64,000 nt of DNA from Methylophaga thalassica MP (GTDB lineage: Bacteria > Pseudomonadota > Gammaproteobacteria > Nitrosococcales > Methylophagaceae): positions 620,001-684,000 of the forward strand of contig NZ_AFIG01000003.1 in NCBI RefSeq assembly GCF_000214595.1. Direction: 5' to 3'. Shown piece by piece: positions 1 to 8,561 of the stretch. The translations under genes and the position numbers were made by a program. Within the stretch, counting starts at the first letter, position 1; every line of letters starts with the position of its first letter. The notes below the pieces were generated by a model that saw nothing but the letters and a program-made list of their open reading frames with translations, was not told the origin of the DNA and searched no databases.

Positions 1-1098
1 TGGATCATATTTTTCAGCCACTAACAGTTCACCCGTGACGCGGTCCATGGTGTAACCAAAACCGTTACGGTCAAAGTGGACAGCGGTTTTACGCATTTTG
101 CCTTTCACTTTTTGATCAGCAAGAATGACTTCGTTGATACCGTCATAATCCCACTCATCATGTGGCGTCATTTGGTAAACCCATTTCGCCATACCGGTGT
201 CTAAGTCACGACCCCATAGAGACATTGACCATTTGTTATCACCAGGACGTTGAACCGGGTTCCAGGTAGATGGATTACCTGAACCATAGTAGAACATGTT
301 CAGATCGGGGTCATAAGAAATCCAGCCCCAAGTGGTACCACCACCAATTTTCCATTGGTCACCTTGCCAGGTTTTCAAAGATGAATCTTTGCCAACTGGT
401 TTCAGCATAGACATGGTTTTGCTTGGATCAACTAACATTTCTTTGTCAGGACCTGTGCTGTATGCCGTGTACTGTTCTTTACCATCCAGGCTATAGGCTT
501 TGATATAACCACGTACACCAAACTCACCGCCTGAGATACCGACTAAGACTTTGTCTTTAACAACAAATGCAGCGCCTGTGCTGGTTTCACCTTTTTTAGG
601 ATCACCACGTTTATCAGACCAAACCACTTTGCCGTCTTCAGCATTTAATGCAACAAGTGTTGTATCGGCTTGGTTCAAGAAAATTTTGCCATCGCCATAG
701 CTTAAACCACGGTTAACCGTGTCACAGCACATAACAGGCACTGTTTCATCGTAGTTTTGTTTGGGTTCATATTTCCATTTCATCGCACCATCGTTGTTTA
801 AGTCCAACGCATAAACGATGTTTGGGAAAGGAGTATGGACATACATAGTGTCACCGATAACCAAAGAGTTACCTTCGTGACCACGTAAAACACCGGTTGA
901 GAAAGACCATGCCATGTTTAAATCTTTGACATTGTCTTTGTTGATTTGAGTTAATTCAGAGTAACGTTGGTTGTTGTAGTTACCTGCTGGCATTACCCAG
1001 TTATTCGGATTTTTTTGCATTTCAAGCAATTCATCGGCAGCAGCCAAGCCTGGCACTGCCAATGTCATCATTGCTAATGACAAAGTTTTCAGCTTCAT
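1..1098 (-). CDS. xoxF: Lanthanide-dependent methanol dehydrogenase XoxF (partial, C-terminus off the window)
   Basis: PQQ-dependent periplasmic alcohol dehydrogenase that oxidises methanol to formaldehyde or formate. Only the first 366 codons are present; the reading frame is open to base 1, and the full family length is about 600 residues. Residues 1-20 form a signal peptide. The adjacent cysteines C124-C125 match the vicinal disulfide over PQQ. E192 (GGEFG) and N275 (GSGNP) match metal ligands. The active-site segment HDEWDYDG places the catalytic Asp at D317 and a second Asp at D319. That extra Asp separates lanthanide XoxF enzymes from calcium MxaF enzymes, which have Ala there. The sequence reads like the XoxF5 type, from memory of the family. 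A GGGA ribosome site precedes ATG 1098. It lies downstream of two kinase/regulator pairs and pqqA on the same strand, which fits co-regulation. Confidence 0.95.
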
Positions 1099-1282: not shown

Positions 1283-1927
1283 TCACTGCTCCGTAATTAC
1301 ACCATATTTCATGGCCAATCTGACCAATTCAACCGGAGAATGAATATCTAGCTTCTGTTTGAGACTTGTTTGGTAATTAGCTACTGTTTTTTGACCGATA
1401 TTTAATCGTCCCGCAATTTCTTCTACTAACTTTCCTTCCGCCAATAAACGGAAAACTTCAAATTCCCGTGAAGTTAATCTTTGCGTCGGGTTATCATCGC
1501 CAGTCAAACTTTGCAAAGCGACTTTTTGTGCCATATCTGCACTCAAAAAGCTTTTGCCTGACGCGACTTCTTTTACTGCCTTAACAAGATCCTCAGCATT
1601 ACCCGATTTTGCTACGTAACCCATGGCGCCAGCGGTCAGCGACTGAATTGCATAGGTCGCATTTTCATGCATAGAGAACATAATGACTCGTGCATCAGGC
1701 CAACGATGAAGAATCCTGCGTAATGCCTCAAGCCCCCCCATACCAGGCATCGACATATCCATCACTAAAACATCCGGACGATTCTCCGGATAAGTTTGAT
1801 AGGCCTGTTCTCCACTCTCCGCTTCAGCAATCACTTTTATGTCTGAATTTTGTTCGAGTAATCGACATAAACCTGATCTGACTACGGCATGGTCATCAGT
1901 CAGCATGACTTTAATTAACTGGCTCAC
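1283..1927 (-). CDS. NarL/LuxR-family response regulator (pair 1)
   Basis: Two-domain cytoplasmic DNA-binding response regulator of 214 residues. The receiver domain spans about residues 5-120, with acidic D11-D12, phospho-acceptor D57 in VMDMSMPG and the conserved lysine in VAKSG. A LuxR-type helix-turn-helix follows at about 150-205 (LTSREFEVFRLLAEGK, then the recognition helix GQKTVANY). It overlaps the upstream kinase gene by four bases (ATGA), so the two are translationally coupled and form a cognate pair. It lies immediately upstream of xoxF and is the best local candidate for a methanol dehydrogenase regulator, comparable to MxaB or MoxX of other methylotrophs; that role is inferred from position. 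It is a clear paralogue of the regulator at 3622-4266. Confidence 0.93.
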   Translation of the reverse strand: MSQLIKVMLTDDHAVVRSGLCRLLEQNSDIKVIAEAESGEQAYQTYPENRPDVLVMDMSMPGMGGLEALRRILHRWPDARVIMFSMHENATYAIQSLTAGAMGYVAKSGNAEDLVKAVKEVASGKSFLSADMAQKVALQSLTGDDNPTQRLTSREFEVFRLLAEGKLVEEIAGRLNIGQKTVANYQTSLKQKLDIHSPVELVRLAMKYGVITEQ

Positions 1928-3267
1928 GCATTATCTCCTTGTTTGGGAACCGTCACATCAATCGTGACGCCTTGATTTAAATTAGATGTAATATCAAAAG
2001 TGCCGCCCACACTGTCTAAGCGTTCTTTCATTCCTGCGAGACCAAAACGCTGTGTGTGCTGTGATGGTTCAAAGCCTTTGCCGTTATCACTCACGGTCAA
2101 ATGAATGGCACGCTTTTCCTCTTTTAAAATGATCCATGCCTGCTTGGCTTTTGAGTGGCGGCTGATATTGGTTAGGCATTCCTGTATGACGCGATATAGT
2201 GTTAATTGGGCATTTTCTTCCAGTGACGAGAACTCACCATCAAATTGATATTCCACTTCAATATTCGGATGTCTTTCACGCCAGCTATCCACTAACTCCT
2301 GCATTGCTGCAATAAAACCTAGTTCATCGAGTCCGCCCGGACGCAAGCGCTGCAGCATGGTTCGCAGAATATCCATCATCAAGCCCACCACTTCATCAAT
2401 CGCCGAAGCACTTTTTTTAGCAGCCTCAAGATCGTTGGTAGACTTAATCACCGAAGCATCAACATGAATTGCCGTCAGATGCTGACCAATTTCATCATGC
2501 AGTTCATGAGCAAGACTTTTTCGCTCAGCTTCCTGCAAACGAATAATCTGTTGTGTCAGGCGATGATTATTACGAATACTGCTTTGTAAGGTTGAAGCCA
2601 TCATGTTGAATTTATGGCTGATACTGGCCATTTCGGGTAATTCAAAAATAGGCAATCTGCTATCCAGATTCCCAGTTTCGATATCAGTCAGCGCAGAAAT
2701 AATCTGATCGATGGGTTTTAAGGCGCGGGCCACTACCAGATAAACCAGAATATTCACAAAGACAAAAAATAATGAAATCATGGTCAATAGTGTTTTCGTC
2801 TCATCCCAGGCCTCGGCTATTTCATTATCAGGCTTAGGTTTTATGACTAACTCACCAATTTTTTGCGAATTCACATAAACCGGCAGTCGCTCAGGTTTTA
2901 AATCATCAAGGGCAGAATACATTTCGCGACCAAACCAGTCAGGATATGGCTTATGGTCGTTACTGGTTTCATCTTCATTACTTTCGATAAGCTGATTATG
3001 CATGCCATAAAATTCGATTCTTAAATGCCTGACTCCCGTGAGTTTATTCAGCATAAAAGGTGACTCAGGCTGCTCTTTAAGCACTTTGTCTTTGAATTTA
3101 AAATGACTTAACTCGGCATTTAGCATGTGTAAGGCGAAGTCCATGGTAGAGGCGACTTCAGCCCTAACATCTTCACGAGCACTATGGATCGCTTTTACTG
3201 CGCCAATCACTAAGATAATTAACAAGACAGCTGTGACGATAAGATTGAGTCTATATCTGAGATTCAT
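1924..3267 (-). CDS. HisKA_3 sensor histidine kinase (pair 1)
   Basis: Membrane sensor kinase of 447 residues, NarX/DegS-like class. A transmembrane helix at about 8-27 and another at about 160-180 bracket a periplasmic sensor domain of about 130 residues. HAMP follows (about 180-235), then the HisKA_3 dimerisation domain with phospho-acceptor H257 in ELHDEIGQ, and a C-terminal HATPase with the G box GLAGMKERL. There is no PAS domain, unlike the paralogous kinase at 4263-5981. It is coupled by ATGA overlap to the response regulator downstream. The ligand cannot be read from the sequence; position next to xoxF and pqqA suggests a C1 or PQQ-related signal. Comparable systems are MoxY of Paracoccus and the Mxb/Mxc kinases. 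Confidence 0.92.
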   Translation of the reverse strand: MNLRYRLNLIVTAVLLIILVIGAVKAIHSAREDVRAEVASTMDFALHMLNAELSHFKFKDKVLKEQPESPFMLNKLTGVRHLRIEFYGMHNQLIESNEDETSNDHKPYPDWFGREMYSALDDLKPERLPVYVNSQKIGELVIKPKPDNEIAEAWDETKTLLTMISLFFVFVNILVYLVVARALKPIDQIISALTDIETGNLDSRLPIFELPEMASISHKFNMMASTLQSSIRNNHRLTQQIIRLQEAERKSLAHELHDEIGQHLTAIHVDASVIKSTNDLEAAKKSASAIDEVVGLMMDILRTMLQRLRPGGLDELGFIAAMQELVDSWRERHPNIEVEYQFDGEFSSLEENAQLTLYRVIQECLTNISRHSKAKQAWIILKEEKRAIHLTVSDNGKGFEPSQHTQRFGLAGMKERLDSVGGTFDITSNLNQGVTIDVTVPKQGDNA

Positions 3268-3411: not shown

Positions 3412-3483
3412 TTAGCGGTTGCAAATATACATTGTTACTTCAAAGCCGAAACGCATGTCTGAGTATTCTGGTTTAGTCCACAT
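3412..3483 (-). CDS. pqqA: PQQ precursor peptide PqqA
   Basis: A 23-codon gene, shorter than usual gene-finder cut-offs. The peptide starts MWTKPEYSDMRF and ends GFEVTMYICNR, the classic PqqA pattern. E15 and Y19 in the EVTMY core are the two residues that PqqE cross-links to build the PQQ skeleton. An AGGAA ribosome site precedes the ATG at 3483. The gene stands alone: no pqqB, pqqC, pqqD or pqqE is next to it, and a strong terminator follows. PQQ is the cofactor of XoxF, whose gene lies 2.3 kb downstream. It sits between two paralogous kinase/regulator pairs. Additional pqqA copies or the pqqBCDE operon are expected elsewhere in the genome. Confidence 0.95.
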   Translation of the reverse strand: MWTKPEYSDMRFGFEVTMYICNR

Positions 3484-3621
3484 AGTCAATTCCTCTTAAT
3501 TGATTCAGTCATTATTGGCTGAATTCCATAGTTCACAGTCTACGGATTTGTGTAAACAATTCAGAGAGGTTTTTACTGGTCATGACTCAGGATTTTTCTG
3601 AATAAACTAAGCAGGATTATC

Positions 3622-4266
3622 TCACGCATCAAGCAAACCACTACGAATTGCCAAACGCGCTAACTCTGCAGAGTTTGAGACATTCAATTTTTGCTTGATA
3701 TTGGTATGATGAGTGCCCACTGTTTTTGGACTTAAATTCAAGATATCCGCAATTTCGTTTACCGTTTTACCTTCCGCCAGCAAACGGAAGACTTCAAACT
3801 CTCGCTGACTCAAAACATCAATCGGATTCTCTGAACCAGTCAGTTTTTGCATGGCTAACTGCTGAGCGATTTCAGGCGCAATACAGGTTTTACCCTGAGC
3901 GACCATTTCTACTGCTCGTAGCATTTCTTCAGGCGCACTGCGTTTGGGAATGAAACCTAACGCCCCTGCCTGCATTGCCCTTGTCGTAAAGACACTATCT
4001 TCATGCACACTGAGGACAAGAATTTTTGCAGAGGGGTCTCTGGCAGTGATCCTTTCTATGGCGCCTACACCACCGATGCCAGGCATAGATATGTCCATAA
4101 CAACAATATCAGGATGATGTTTACTGAAATCCTGAACAGCCTGCTCACCACTACCTGCCTCTGCAATCACCGTAAATTTGTCACCATCTTCCAAAAGTCG
4201 ACGAAATCCTGCTCGCACCAGTTCGTGATCATCAACCAGCAATATTGTTTTTTTATCCAGACTCAT
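3622..4266 (-). CDS. NarL/LuxR-family response regulator (pair 2)
   Basis: A 214-residue response regulator, same length and layout as the one at 1283-1927. The receiver has acidic D12-D13, phospho-acceptor D58 in VMDISMPG and the conserved lysine in IPKRS. The LuxR helix-turn-helix lies at about 150-205 (LSQREFEVFRLLAEGK, SPKTVGTH). It overlaps the upstream kinase by four bases (ATGA). It is the last gene of a run of five translationally coupled or nearly abutting genes (M48 protease, soxY, soxZ, kinase, regulator). It lies just upstream of pqqA, which makes pqqA and xoxF plausible targets; this is inference from position. Confidence 0.93.
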   Translation of the reverse strand: MSLDKKTILLVDDHELVRAGFRRLLEDGDKFTVIAEAGSGEQAVQDFSKHHPDIVVMDISMPGIGGVGAIERITARDPSAKILVLSVHEDSVFTTRAMQAGALGFIPKRSAPEEMLRAVEMVAQGKTCIAPEIAQQLAMQKLTGSENPIDVLSQREFEVFRLLAEGKTVNEIADILNLSPKTVGTHHTNIKQKLNVSNSAELARLAIRSGLLDA

Positions 4267-5981
4267 AATAATCTGTCCGCTCTTAGAGGAATAACCACGC
4301 TGACTTTAACGCCATTGCCTGGCTCACTGGTAAGTTCAAACTCACCCCCGAGGCTGTGAGCACGCTCGCGCATACCCAACAATCCAAAGTCGACGTCAGA
4401 ATGTAGGTCTTTAACAACCATACCTTTACCGTTGTCTTTAATCTCGATAGAAAGATTATCTATATCACTATTACTGGCTTTCTGTGTTTTTACAATAACA
4501 TTGATCTGACTTGCCTCCGCATGTCTGACTGCATTGGTTATTGCTTCCTGCACCACACGGAATACCGTCATATTCATCATTTCATTCAGATTATCTAAAC
4601 GACCTGACACCCGAATATCAAACTGGATATCAGGCTCACGTGCCTGCCAGCTGGTAATCGCTTGCTCAAGTGTCGGCACCAATCCTAAATCATCCAAAGG
4701 ACTCGGGCGTAAACGCGTGATCATATTATGAACTACATCGTATATATGACTCGTCGTATCAATAATAGCCTGGGCACTGTTGAACACTCGCGGTTCGCTC
4801 TGCTCCGTACGATTGCGGATTAATACCGCATCGGTTTTTATCGCTGTCAGGCACTGACCCAACTCATCATGAAGCTCTCTGGCTAAATGACGCCGTTCCG
4901 CTTCTTGTACTTCATCCATATGCTGAGTCAGTAAACGCGTCTCCCTGAGTTGCGTTCTAGCGGCCTCAGCCTGTTTTAGCTCGGTGATATCACGCAGTGT
5001 ACAAATCAGACCAATGACCTGCTGCTCTTTATCAAATAACGGCACCGTTGACATGAGTAAGGCCACTTTTTCGCCATCTGGTCGTAACAGCGTAGTCTCC
5101 ATGTTTTCTGTGATTTCACAGTTTTCTAAAATGGAAGCTATTTTCTGATGAGACTGTTCAAAGCCCAGGTTAGCAAGTGCTTCACCTTTTAACACCAAGG
5201 TTTGTTTGGCAAATAAACGTTCGGCTGTAGAGTTACAAAATGTGATATTACCAGCATGATCCAGTGACAAAATGGCATCGCCGGACTGCCGAACTAACAT
5301 GGCTAAACGTTGATTTTCTGCCATACTCAGTTCCAGCGCCTGACCCATTCTATTGAAGGTATGACTGATTTGATTCATTTCAGTCAGGCTGAAATCCGGC
5401 AGGCGTAAGTGCAAATCGCCTTTCTCAAACGCAGACAAAACTTGCAATAGTCTCTGCAAAGGCCTTAAAAACCAGTCAACACCCCAGTAAAGGAAAATAC
5501 TGACAAATACAAAAGCCACCATACCTAAGGCCAGGATGCTCCGTATATCCATCCAACGGTCACTGATTTCTTGCATTGGCGCAGCATAAATCACCATATG
5601 GCCGGTGCCAAACCGTTTAGAGAGAGGTGTCACTTCGGGAAACAGCACTTTGACAAACCACTCAGGAGGCTCGACTTTGAGTGTTTCATCCGGCTCTCCT
5701 TCGAAAAGAAGCCCCTGCGAATCGAACATCAAAATATGTAAACTTCTTATCTGACTCAGCGCTTTGACCATTTCATGGATTTGCTGGTTGATACCATAAT
5801 CCCGGTTAAGCGGTTTATCGGCTAAGGTCAGAGTAATAAGACGAGCTGCGGCAGCCATCGTATCTTCAACTTCAATCTGAACAGATTTTCGTGCGTTAGT
5901 AATCAGAACACCGGTACTGGCGAGTAATGCCACCAGTAAGAGCACGGTAAAAAACAGATTAACTTTTAACTTAAGACTCAT
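4263..5981 (-). CDS. PAS-containing HisKA_3 sensor histidine kinase (pair 2)
   Basis: A 572-residue membrane sensor kinase. Transmembrane helices at about 8-28 and 148-168 flank a periplasmic domain. HAMP follows (about 170-222), then a PAS domain (about 225-345), HisKA_3 with phospho-acceptor H371 in ELHDELGQ, and a HATPase ending GLLGMRERAHS. It resembles the pair-1 kinase outside the extra PAS domain, so the two pairs look like an old duplication. Its ATG overlaps the soxZ stop by four bases, and its stop overlaps the regulator start by four. This coupling to a SoxYZ carrier is the odd point: the kinase may sense a sulfur or quinoprotein-related state through SoxYZ, which is inference only. 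Confidence 0.92.
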   Translation of the reverse strand: MSLKLKVNLFFTVLLLVALLASTGVLITNARKSVQIEVEDTMAAAARLITLTLADKPLNRDYGINQQIHEMVKALSQIRSLHILMFDSQGLLFEGEPDETLKVEPPEWFVKVLFPEVTPLSKRFGTGHMVIYAAPMQEISDRWMDIRSILALGMVAFVFVSIFLYWGVDWFLRPLQRLLQVLSAFEKGDLHLRLPDFSLTEMNQISHTFNRMGQALELSMAENQRLAMLVRQSGDAILSLDHAGNITFCNSTAERLFAKQTLVLKGEALANLGFEQSHQKIASILENCEITENMETTLLRPDGEKVALLMSTVPLFDKEQQVIGLICTLRDITELKQAEAARTQLRETRLLTQHMDEVQEAERRHLARELHDELGQCLTAIKTDAVLIRNRTEQSEPRVFNSAQAIIDTTSHIYDVVHNMITRLRPSPLDDLGLVPTLEQAITSWQAREPDIQFDIRVSGRLDNLNEMMNMTVFRVVQEAITNAVRHAEASQINVIVKTQKASNSDIDNLSIEIKDNGKGMVVKDLHSDVDFGLLGMRERAHSLGGEFELTSEPGNGVKVSVVIPLRADRLL

Positions 5982-6295
5982 CGTAACTCAGTTTCTGTTA
6001 CGCCCTTAGCGCCCAGATTATCGACCCAGCGAATCATAATCTTATCGCCAACGGCTCCTCCCGCCAATTGAAAAGAGAAATAAGGATTACGAGCCGTTGC
6101 CGTGCCACATTTTATCGCCATCACCTCGTTACCATTTCGCCAGCAACGAATATCCTGAATAAATTGGGCTGGAATCAACTCACCGTTTTCATCCTTACCT
6201 CTACCGGTATGCATCGGATGGGCGAGTAATACTCTAACGGTCGTATCGCCTTCTTTTAGTTTGGCACGAATCCGGTCTCGGGCAGTTATGGCCAT
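5978..6295 (-). CDS. soxZ: SoxZ-family sulfur carrier subunit
   Basis: A 105-residue SoxZ homologue with the immunoglobulin-like fold of SoxYZ, including HPMHTGRGKDENG and GTATARNPYFSF, typical of SoxZ. SoxZ pairs with SoxY in the periplasm and holds the carrier that bears sulfur intermediates. I chose ATG 6295, which shares one base with the soxY stop (TGATG), over an in-frame ATG at 6304 inside soxY. There is no signal peptide; SoxZ is normally exported as a complex with SoxY. No soxAX, soxB or soxCD lies in the window, so a full thiosulfate pathway is not shown here. The following kinase gene overlaps its stop by four bases. Confidence 0.92.
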   Translation of the reverse strand: MAITARDRIRAKLKEGDTTVRVLLAHPMHTGRGKDENGELIPAQFIQDIRCWRNGNEVMAIKCGTATARNPYFSFQLAGGAVGDKIMIRWVDNLGAKGVTETELR

Positions 6296-6783
6296 CAGGC
6301 ACATCCTCCAATATCAACTGAGATGTCACGTGAGGTTTGATAAAGCTTGCCATCGGCACGAATGACAGCAATGATTTTTGAATCTTCCGCCACTTTTATC
6401 ATGCTTTTGAATGGCAGTTTTACACCTTCTGTGAGTTCGATACTCATTGCTAATGGATTGGGATTTTTATCCACGAGAATAGCAATCCGTTCTATATTCT
6501 CCAAACTGGATATCACCTCAAATGGCACAGAGGCGCCATTAACGGCGTAGCTAGGTGGTGAGCCCACTTTAAAACTCACTTTATCTTCTGGAATATCTTG
6601 TGCCTGTCCTAATAAGGCAAGCAGCGCATCCTCAACCGTATCCGCCGTAAAGGCATCAGAGGGCCAATGTGCCAGTACGCGTTTTGGAGCCAGCAAGCCA
6701 GTACTGGCCACCAATGCCAATGTAGATGCTGAAATAGCACTTTTCAAAAACTGTCTGCGTCGCTTGTCGGCATTCTCCGTCAT
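6295..6783 (-). CDS. soxY: SoxY-family sulfur carrier protein, Tat-exported
   Basis: A 162-residue SoxY homologue. The N-terminus has a twin-arginine signal (RRRQFLK, then a hydrophobic stretch to about residue 38). The last residues are DIGGCA, placing the carrier cysteine at C161. Canonical SoxY ends GGCGG, so this tail is shortened and altered, though the Cys remains. SoxYZ carries sulfur species covalently on that Cys. A related family of SoxYZ-like carriers occurs beside quinoprotein dehydrogenases, and that context exists here. It starts 4 bases after the M48 protease gene and overlaps soxZ by one base. The operon mates point to signalling or quinoprotein support as much as to thiosulfate oxidation. 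Confidence 0.92.
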   Translation of the reverse strand: MTENADKRRRQFLKSAISASTLALVASTGLLAPKRVLAHWPSDAFTADTVEDALLALLGQAQDIPEDKVSFKVGSPPSYAVNGASVPFEVISSLENIERIAILVDKNPNPLAMSIELTEGVKLPFKSMIKVAEDSKIIAVIRADGKLYQTSRDISVDIGGCA

Positions 6784-6786
6784 TAT

Positions 6787-8229
6787 TTAATTTTCCATCT
6801 CACTCATCGCATTCTCAACTTCCCGCAATCTTGAAGCAATTTTGGAAAGTTGATATTCATCATGACCAGCCGCCTCTGCAGCCAGGTGCAATTGATCTGC
6901 AGCGGCCTTCAGTAAGCCTGACTGATAGTAATACTCAGCAAGCCATGCATGCGACTCGCTTTTTTGCCCCATATCACCTTTCGCCTGGGCCATTAGCTTA
7001 TATATCTGCCGTCCTGTCTCACCCAGCTCAATCTGGGTCTGTAATAGCTTAGCCGCTTTATCGGGTCTGCCTGTTGTTAACAAGGCATGCACCTCATTCA
7101 GCGTCAATGCACGATCGTCAGGATATAGACGCTGATTGTCTTCATAAATCGCCAGGGCTGCATCGACACGACCTATTGATAATTCAATATCTGCCAACGC
7201 CAATTGATAGGCCAAACGATCAGGCTCTTTCTCAATCAATGGCATCAAACGCTGACGCGCTAGGGTGTATTGTGCACTCTTCATTAATGCCAGCACATAA
7301 CCATAATTCAGCGGATCTTTATTTTCTGGTTTATCTTCCGTTAATTGCTGTTGATAATACTTAATCAAATCCTGACTATCCTGCGCCGTCATCACACGAA
7401 GCTTTTCTCTGACTAAGTAAAACTGCTCATGATCTGAAAGCCTTGGTTTTACCTTATATTGAGATGCACGACCTCTAGCATCGGCTATACGTGATGTGGT
7501 GACTGGGTGAGTTCGTAAAAACTCTGGAATCGCATCGCCACCATAAAAGCGACTCGCTTGCTGGAGCTTTTCAAAAAAACTGGGCATCGCATCAGGATTA
7601 AACCCTGATTTAACTAATGTCTGCATCCCTATATTGTCAGCTTCTGCCTCATTCGCCCTGGTATAGTCAATCTGACTCTGAATACTCCCTGCCTGCACTG
7701 CCATGATCGCCGCCGAACCGGCTTTAGGATCAGCGGCACCCAACAGTGCTGCAGCAATCATGGCAGCTGTTCGGGGAATCGTCATCCGTTTTGAATTTTC
7801 AAAGCTTCTCAATATATGGCGTTGCGTGATATGCGCAATCTCATGCGACATTACCGAAGCCAGCTCATCTTCATTTGCTGCGGTCAGAATCAAGCCTGAA
7901 TTGACACCTACATACCCACCTGGCGTAGCAAACGCATTTACAGTAGCGTCAGGAACAACAAAAAAAGTGTAGTTCAAATTAGGTTCATTACTATTAGAAG
8001 CCAATCGGTAACCTAAGGACTGAATATAACTATTCACCTCAGGATCTTCTACCAAGTCAGTGCTTTGTTGTAAGCGCCAGAAAAACGCCTGACCAATCTC
8101 CTGCTCTTCTCGAGGAGAAATCAATTCACCTGCGCTATCCCCCATTTCAGGTAAGGCAATATCCAGCGCCCAGCCACTACTAAGATGACTGAAAAAAACT
8201 AAACTTACGATTTGAAATATTGTTCTCAT
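6787..8229 (-). CDS. bepA: Periplasmic M48 metalloprotease with TPR domain (BepA-like)
   Basis: A zinc metalloprotease of the BepA/YfgC group, which handles outer-membrane protein assembly in the periplasm. A signal peptide covers about residues 1-22, ending in a GWALD-type cleavage region. The M48 catalytic motif HEIAH lies in the N-terminal half, with the second glutamate in the NEAEAD segment. The C-terminal 200 residues form TPR-like repeats. I chose ATG 8229 because it opens a clean signal peptide; a GTG at 8259 adds ten non-signal residues. The length, 480 residues, suits the family. It is the first gene of the soxYZ-kinase-regulator run, with a 3-base gap to soxY. Why a protease heads this operon is not clear. 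Confidence 0.88.
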   Translation of the reverse strand: MRTIFQIVSLVFFSHLSSGWALDIALPEMGDSAGELISPREEQEIGQAFFWRLQQSTDLVEDPEVNSYIQSLGYRLASNSNEPNLNYTFFVVPDATVNAFATPGGYVGVNSGLILTAANEDELASVMSHEIAHITQRHILRSFENSKRMTIPRTAAMIAAALLGAADPKAGSAAIMAVQAGSIQSQIDYTRANEAEADNIGMQTLVKSGFNPDAMPSFFEKLQQASRFYGGDAIPEFLRTHPVTTSRIADARGRASQYKVKPRLSDHEQFYLVREKLRVMTAQDSQDLIKYYQQQLTEDKPENKDPLNYGYVLALMKSAQYTLARQRLMPLIEKEPDRLAYQLALADIELSIGRVDAALAIYEDNQRLYPDDRALTLNEVHALLTTGRPDKAAKLLQTQIELGETGRQIYKLMAQAKGDMGQKSESHAWLAEYYYQSGLLKAAADQLHLAAEAAGHDEYQLSKIASRLREVENAMSEMEN

Positions 8230-8330: not shown

Positions 8331-8561
8331 ATGTCAGAATTTCAAAAAGAAATTGATACCTCCGGCCTCAATTGCCCTCTTCCTGTGTTAAAAGCCCGGA
8401 AAGCACTCGCCGATATGTCACCTGGACAACGGCTTTTATTGATTGCCACCGACAAAGGTGCAAATAAAGATATTCCTACTTTTTGTAAAATGACAGGCAA
8501 TACATTAATAGAAATGTCTGAAGTCGACGATAAATATCATTTTGTTGTTGAGAAAGCCTAA
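8331..8561 (+). CDS. tusA: TusA-family sulfurtransferase
   Basis: A 76-residue cytoplasmic sulfur carrier of the TusA/SirA family. The N-terminal motif GLNCPLPVLKARKAL places the persulfide-carrying cysteine at C15, in the diagnostic CPxP setting. TusA proteins relay sulfur for tRNA thiolation, molybdenum cofactor assembly or dissimilatory sulfur oxidation. It is transcribed divergently from the M48-soxYZ operon, so a shared control region of about 100 bases lies between them. The sulfur theme on both sides of that region suggests a functional link. The sequence cannot tell the tRNA role from the oxidative role. Confidence 0.9.
   Translation: MSEFQKEIDTSGLNCPLPVLKARKALADMSPGQRLLLIATDKGANKDIPTFCKMTGNTLIEMSEVDDKYHFVVEKA

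Follow-up and report, generated by a model that had tools for sequence, protein, structure and literature searches.

Several settings are known in which the sulfur carrier SoxYZ is encoded. Canonical SoxYZ occurs in loci of the order bepA-soxX-soxY-soxZ-soxA, and a fused form (TIGR04557) is a carrier in bacteria with dehydrogenases dependent on pyrroloquinoline quinone (PQQ) and without SoxB. Carriers near regulators have also been described: the available part of one report places soxYZ of lucinid symbionts (Thiohalomonadales) near a histidine kinase gene (PMC11237559), and for Hyphomicrobium denitrificans the accessible text of another proposes that sulfane sulfur on SoxYZ feeds signalling through SoxT1B/SoxR (PMC12423496). 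Here we describe a locus of Methylophaga thalassica MP, located in a window of 64,000 nucleotides (G000:C1:620001-684000; G000 being its own genome of 3.26 Mb), in which soxY and soxZ stand between the gene of a BepA-type M48 metalloprotease and the genes of a sensor kinase (HK1) and a LuxR/NarL-type response regulator (RR1). In the Methylophagaceae the run bepA-soxY-soxZ-HK1-RR1 forms a single conserved unit with tight spacing, and its carrier may have been turned into an input of the kinase.

With the canonical loci this locus shares the SoxY and SoxZ families, a Tat-like (twin-arginine translocation) signal, a cysteine on a C-terminal GG-C arm and an upstream bepA; it differs from them in its GGC[AGS] arm, in the lack of soxX and soxA at the locus and of a SoxB match in the genome, in its separate clade and in the kinase and regulator downstream. 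Unlike the fused carrier, SoxY and SoxZ are here two separate genes with other neighbours, and they score only 48.8 and 47.2 bits against TIGR04557, far under its cut-off of 140. The lucinid symbionts differ in having a sigma-54 regulator and in being thiosulfate oxidisers in which soxB and soxAX are retained, and the available part of that report describes no coupling (PMC11237559); SoxT1B/SoxR acts by way of a membrane transporter and a transcriptional repressor, with no kinase in the text available (PMC12423496). MxaY/MoxY-type kinases have in common with HK1 a weak LapD_MoxY_N sensor match and a methylotroph setting, a likeness by profile; in M. buryatense, MxaY exerts at least part of its effect via the orphan regulator MxaB, according to the accessible portion of its description (PMC5018670). 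Orphan soxYZ of Methylophaga has been published as part of a Sox pathway without SoxAB, the operon going unmentioned in the part of that paper available (PMC6548844). We found no description of the bepA-soxYZ-kinase-regulator arrangement in the open-access literature, which omits most subscription journals.

The five-gene unit in Methylophagaceae

All five genes lie on the minus strand of the window. They encode the M48 protease with its TPR region (6787..8229, alternative start 8259; PF01435, E 6.7e-36), SoxY with the carrier residue Cys161 and the C-terminus GGCA (6295..6783; PF13501, E 2e-23, and family alignment), SoxZ (5978..6304, or from a start at 6295; TIGR04490 and PF08770), HK1 with a LapD/MoxY-like periplasmic domain, HAMP, PAS, HisKA_3 and HATPase_c (4263..5981), and RR1 (3622..4266; PF00072 and PF00196). 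An initial annotation of this DNA had placed all five correctly, and the coordinates agree with its 3-base gap between BepA and SoxY and its two 4-base overlaps (SoxZ/HK1 and HK1/RR1). The 1-base overlap that it gave for soxY and soxZ holds for an ATG nine bases downstream of the first, whereas the first ATG gives an overlap of 10 bases; relatives show both spacings.

When 57 Methylophagaceae genomes were searched for SoxY, 54 had matches and 52 had the type found in the window, 44 of them with the carrier cysteine (our own genome included) and eight without it. G047 has fused SoxY matches only, G005 a canonical SoxY only, and G003, G026 and G051 no SoxY match. The SoxY of the window is 94% identical to that of Methylophaga sulfidovorans, 77% to M. 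thiooxydans, 65% to M. lonarensis and 58% to M. muralis. BepA lies directly upstream of window-type SoxY in 51 of the 52 genomes (the contig of G043 begins at soxY), and HK1 follows the Cys-type SoxYZ in 43 of 44 (in G025 the contig end truncates it, and in G040 the contig stops before it; of the locus pieces, L050 ends within HK1 and L054 before it). Gene order is retained wherever the extent of the contig permits. The distances are nearly fixed despite protein identities of about 60–70% among family members: the spacing between SoxZ and HK1 is exactly -4 in 38 of 41 loci measured, BepA and SoxY are at most 8 bases apart in 49 of 49, SoxY and SoxZ overlap or abut in 50 of 50, and HK1 and RR1 are at most 5 bases apart in 39 of 40. 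Since the order is the same and the spacing nearly the same throughout the family, the five-gene run is beyond chance, and the lack of synteny in relatives that the initial annotation had named as grounds for dropping its proposal did not materialise within the Methylophagaceae.

With regard to family assignment, SoxY scores 108.1 bits against TIGR04488, the model of canonical SoxY, under the curated cut-off of 125; a canonical SoxY of the Methylophagaceae, by comparison, scores 174 bits. The canonical GGCGG arm is absent, and the end reads IGGCA with C161 as carrier residue, just as initially annotated; across the kinase-bearing group of the family alignment the arm is GGC[AGS] and the cysteine is retained. 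The motif RRRQFLK in SoxY is what we take to be the Tat-like signal. SoxZ passes TIGR04490 with 104.4 bits (cut-off 76) and also matches PF08770, and HisKA_3, HATPase_c, Response_reg and GerE of HK1 and RR1 are all above gathering. The protease matches NF052400 (M48_BAM_BepA) over its full length with 404.3 bits, under the cut-off of 570, hence the label BepA-type.

A profile search for SoxB in the own genome gave no match at E ≤ 1; tried on 13 family genomes, the same model scored above its cut-off in 9. The best SoxA hit in the own genome was not credible (E 0.9; 9.3 bits, cut-off 110), and neither soxX nor soxA was seen at the locus, soxX being absent between bepA and soxY and a genome-wide search for it not having been made. 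Because SoxB has no match and SoxA no credible one, the genome has no working Sox system; thus the complete sox cluster elsewhere that would have spoken against the initial proposal did not turn up, with SoxX unsearched. The genome does contain two fused SoxYZ genes above the TIGR04557 cut-off (G000:C3:620210-620896 and G000:C3:1426725-1427414), both with a GGCS motif, one of them about 2 kb from a XoxF gene. The other adjoins a SoxH-like metallohydrolase gene, named by eye. XoxF and Sox have reportedly been treated together in Advenella, by Pyne et al. in 2018.

The carrier cysteine and the origin of the locus

All 44 kinase-type genomes have the carrier cysteine. In the eight remaining genomes (G015, G017, G018, G022, G027, G028, G029 and G030) it is replaced in every case, by N, D, A or V, and the same eight carry bepA-soxY-soxZ without HK1, RR1 or pqqA in the available stretch. 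Searches of these eight whole genomes at E ≤ 1e-20 gave an HK1 match in G017 only, with 32% identity over the kinase core, and XoxF-type matches were absent from them at E ≤ 1e-30. Genome-wide searches for HK1 covered 15 family genomes and 369 genomes of the class Gammaproteobacteria, at most three candidates being scored per class genome; full-length HK1 was found only behind Cys-bearing SoxYZ. This bears out the link between SoxYZ and the kinase that was initially put forward, as does the absence of the cysteine from the genomes that lack HK1.

The seven Cys-less rows all lack seven SoxY residues that at least 95% of the 44 kinase-type rows retain (Y79, A80, A84, P87, K106, M128 and C161), and in SoxZ T33 is the sole such position. 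L087 and L088, which both come from G015 and are counted once, stand outside these seven rows and outside the seven Cys-less rows of the SoxYZ tree. Judged from the alignment, a loop and the arm of SoxY were let go together and much of the remainder preserved. Three pairs of Cys-less SoxY gave ratios of nonsynonymous to synonymous substitution rates (dN/dS) of 0.086, 0.116 and 0.079, indicating purifying selection beside BepA; pairs with saturated dS are unusable for this measure. Since BepA-SoxYZ survives in these eight genomes without kinase and cysteine, BepA looks like the older partner of SoxYZ.

We also considered whether the cysteine was lost through the presence of a second, canonical SoxYZ, as canonical SoxY is present in six of the eight Cys-less genomes. 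This was rejected: G012 and G031 have a separate canonical SoxY and SoxB, yet keep the cysteine together with HK1, and therefore a second SoxYZ alone does not cost the cysteine; conversely, no SoxB was found in G017 (67% complete) or G018 (81%), yet the cysteine is absent.

In the wider set SoxY occurs in 184 of the 369 class genomes, four of these being Methylophagaceae. From the 180 SoxY-bearing genomes outside the family we read 26 loci; every SoxY among them ends in GGCGG, and BepA lies within about 1.5 kb in 15 of the 26. The order bepA-soxX-soxY-soxZ-soxA was seen in L120 and L124, where SoxX and SoxA were identified by NCBIfam profile; in other class loci these two were called by eye. 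With the arm columns left out, the Methylophagaceae SoxYZ form a clade (100/100) apart both from the canonical SoxYZ of the class and from the family's own. The first branch within this clade, weakly placed (93/46), is L079, a row with the cysteine, and none of the 30 canonical rows lacks it, so loss of the cysteine within the clade, and not gain, would be the simpler reading. As a whole, the locus looks like a stripped gammaproteobacterial sox locus.

Neighbouring genes, the pqqA box and XoxF

Downstream of RR1 on the same strand lies pqqA (3412..3483; PF08042, E 1.6e-11), a neighbour whose membership in the unit is putative. In front of it is a palindromic box TCAGAAAAATCCTGAGT (3585..3601, minus strand), recognised in an alignment of 33 rows, 27 of which are exact to AGRAAAATCCTKAG; with up to 2 mismatches, 0.19 occurrences are expected in the window. 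A palindrome like TCAGGAAAATCCTGA precedes each of the three pqqA copies seen in the own genome (in the window, at G000:C3:449094 and at G000:C1:610095), and the box is also found before pqqA in G051, G047, G005 and G026, genomes with no full-length HK1 found and with RR1 unsearched genome-wide. RR1 was tried as the binder of the palindrome and rejected, as the box stands also at pqqA copies far from RR1 and in HK1-less genomes. The palindrome is thus a pqqA promoter element, and control of quinoprotein genes by RR1, as originally proposed, finds no support in it. In G056 a box of the pqqA type (L243, G056:C35, motif 1189-1202) was also seen upstream of a gene that by eye resembles a TonB receptor gene, a possible uptake target.

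The initial annotation had pqqA and xoxF adjoining the five genes. Both are there, xoxF truncated by the window edge (1..1098, minus strand, named from sequence), but a second kinase-regulator pair in between had been overlooked: HK2 (1924..3267, minus strand), identified by domain matches that include a weak LapD_MoxY_N match, and the LuxR-type regulator RR2 (1283..1927, minus strand), likewise identified by domain matches. This pair, directly before xoxF, adjoins xoxF in several relatives as well. The own genome has eight quinoprotein matches of the methanol dehydrogenase type, seven with at least 80% identity to the XoxF of the window (itself included) and one with 53%. On the other side of the unit, and absent from the initial annotation, a TusA-like protein is encoded divergently from bepA (8331..8561, plus strand; PF01206, E 3.6e-24).

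Window-type SoxY, a close BepA (best identity 30–32%) and full-length HK1 were all missing from G047, G051, G026 and G005 (83%, 99%, 69% and 82% complete, respectively). G047 has two XoxF matches (81–82%), G005 has XoxF pieces of 76% and 83%, both on the same contig, G051 has a stretch at 89% identity (residues 1-141, within a frame of 174 residues) together with a full-length match at 54%, and G026 has no XoxF match. Three of these genomes thus have XoxF-type matches without BepA-linked SoxY or full-length HK1, which speaks against a necessary tie to XoxF, and because such matches occur in genomes without the unit, methylotrophy that depends on PQQ seems able to do without it.

The HK1 sensor and the role of SoxYZ

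The sensor of HK1 scores 17.8 bits against PF16448, the LapD/MoxY periplasmic domain (E 0.003), not reaching the gathering threshold of 25. A structural model of the sensor (predicted local distance difference test score 73) had as its first Foldseek match 4u64, the periplasmic output domain of LapD, with a probability of 1.00, a template modelling score of 0.64 by target and an E of 0.033, and a second structure alignment with 4u64 gave a Z of 8.8 over 123 residues. LapD recruits a periplasmic protein, LapG, according to the part of that study available (PMC4359373). Outside the family, the HK1 sensor was not covered by any match among the scored candidates of the class genomes.

The nearest kinase core and regulator found outside the family are five pairs (L188-L192), with which HK1-RR1 clusters at 97/95; two rows mispaired with RR1 (L077_5099 and L074_12497) are excluded from the kinase and regulator trees. 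These pairs share a PAS domain with HK1 (tested in L190) but have another sensor, and a gene for a PhnD-like periplasmic binding protein (PF12974 tested in L190) precedes the kinase in the slot held here by SoxYZ. All five genomes have a SoxY match. The rows of binding protein, kinase and LuxR regulator resemble a binding-protein/kinase sensor. Behind the pair in L188, L190 and L192 lies a SoxB-related gene of the 5'-nucleotidase (phosphoesterase) type, 712-737 residues long in L262 and L260; L261 holds only the first 79 residues of such a gene, with no match, and L264 (L191) has none. The gene behind L188-L190 and L192 had been taken for soxB by eye, an identification that we rejected: SoxB is its best NCBIfam match, but the scores against TIGR04486 are 183, 156 and 191 bits in L260, L262 and L263, compared with a cut-off of 550 and 851 bits for a real family SoxB. 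HK1 as a sister of HK2 was also rejected, the constrained tree being worse with a borderline p of 0.04 in the approximately unbiased test. HK1 may be a core of one origin joined to a MoxY-type sensor.

On these grounds we tentatively favour the view that the stripped sox locus was repurposed as a signalling unit, with periplasmic SoxYZ as the input of HK1. Cys161 would be loaded with sulfane sulfur or a thiosulfate group, or oxidised, by periplasmic sulfur compounds, whether encountered by such bacteria or produced by them from sulfide, methanethiol or dimethylsulfide. In one of its forms SoxYZ would then dock on the LapD/MoxY-like domain and alter the activity of HK1 and with it the phosphorylation of RR1, which would adjust putative one-carbon (C1) and sulfur metabolism genes; BepA would remain in the operon as the older partner with an envelope role of its own. 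The wider idea, that a Sox carrier serves a two-component system as its sensory subunit in the periplasm and that the load on Cys161 tunes C1 and sulfur metabolism without thiosulfate-oxidising Sox enzymes, we hold to be a rather doubtful possibility.

Several observations weigh against SoxYZ as a kinase input. The eight Cys-less genomes being one clade on a BepA tree (100/99), the loss of cysteine and HK1 is a single event (one independent pair), which leaves the correlation without statistical power; that clade lost the XoxF match as well. As BepA-SoxYZ persists without the kinase, SoxYZ has some role that does not depend on it. The pqqA box is not specific to RR1, and G047 and G051, of the same genus, have XoxF-type matches but lack this SoxY, the close BepA and full-length HK1. 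With regard to the sensor, a WalK model outscores LapD in the second structure alignment (Z 9.5); HK2 has the same weak LapD_MoxY_N match without SoxYZ, and therefore this sensor type does not imply SoxYZ; and the HK1 sensor contains no cysteine, so that sulfur is not passed to it directly. The kinase tree carries a long-branch warning, and the five outside pairs have a different N-terminal region (2CSK_N/sCache-like in one tested), so that the argument from the shared slot is one of analogy. Finally, the SoxB-related genes behind three of these pairs score below the cut-off and do not prove that HK1-RR1 descends from a sox regulator.

Nearly as likely is that SoxYZ is a regulated product: HK1-RR1 would sense a C1 or sulfur signal alone, and the carrier would serve XoxF or sulfide/thiosulfate chemistry. 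Regulators commonly adjoin their targets, and MxaY-type kinases may sense alone. For lucinid symbionts the available part of PMC11237559 describes sox loci that contain LuxR, sigma-54 and histidine kinase genes, and the accessible text of PMC6548844 reports that growth on dimethylsulfide raised some Sox proteins of M. thiooxydans. SoxYZ carriers near quinoproteins are also known, from the fused gene near XoxF in this genome and from cases in print, as far as those sources were available, and the Cys-less clade without XoxF matches leaves it conceivable that the cysteine tracks XoxF rather than HK1. However, this genome already has two fused carriers of the quinoprotein type, G047, G051 and G005 have XoxF-type matches but not this SoxYZ, and full-length HK1 was never seen without SoxYZ in the searches made.

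That SoxYZ mainly partners BepA in envelope quality control, as a thiol carrier or scaffold for the folding of outer-membrane proteins, with the kinase reporting the state of the envelope, is in our view unlikely. BepA precedes SoxY even where cysteine, kinase and pqqA are missing, SoxYZ there being under purifying selection, and it is also near canonical soxY in the 15 class loci mentioned above; the available portion of PMC11237559 places Sedimenticola soxY-S1b beside a BepA gene. Elsewhere, however, adjacency to BepA accompanies a canonical GGCGG SoxY and may thus be historical, and the cysteine is conserved only in the kinase-bearing group. We know of no interaction between BepA and SoxYZ. 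A non-functional relic of a sox operon in front of unrelated regulators would account for the missing soxX and soxA at the locus, for the lack of a credible SoxB or SoxA in the genome and for the score of SoxY under the TIGR04488 cut-off, but it is highly improbable and was rejected on the conserved cysteine of all kinase-type genomes, the near-fixed spacing and a dN/dS well below 1 wherever computable.

The orphan soxYZ of Methylophaga is now seen to belong to an operon, present across the family, that also encodes a protease and a kinase, and the natural contrast between a cysteine with the kinase and none without it permits a single-residue test. If SoxYZ is indeed the input of HK1, a sulfur-carrier type would be added to the periplasmic inputs of kinases, and sulfur chemistry would be tied to regulation in bacteria some of which grow on dimethylsulfide and methanol.

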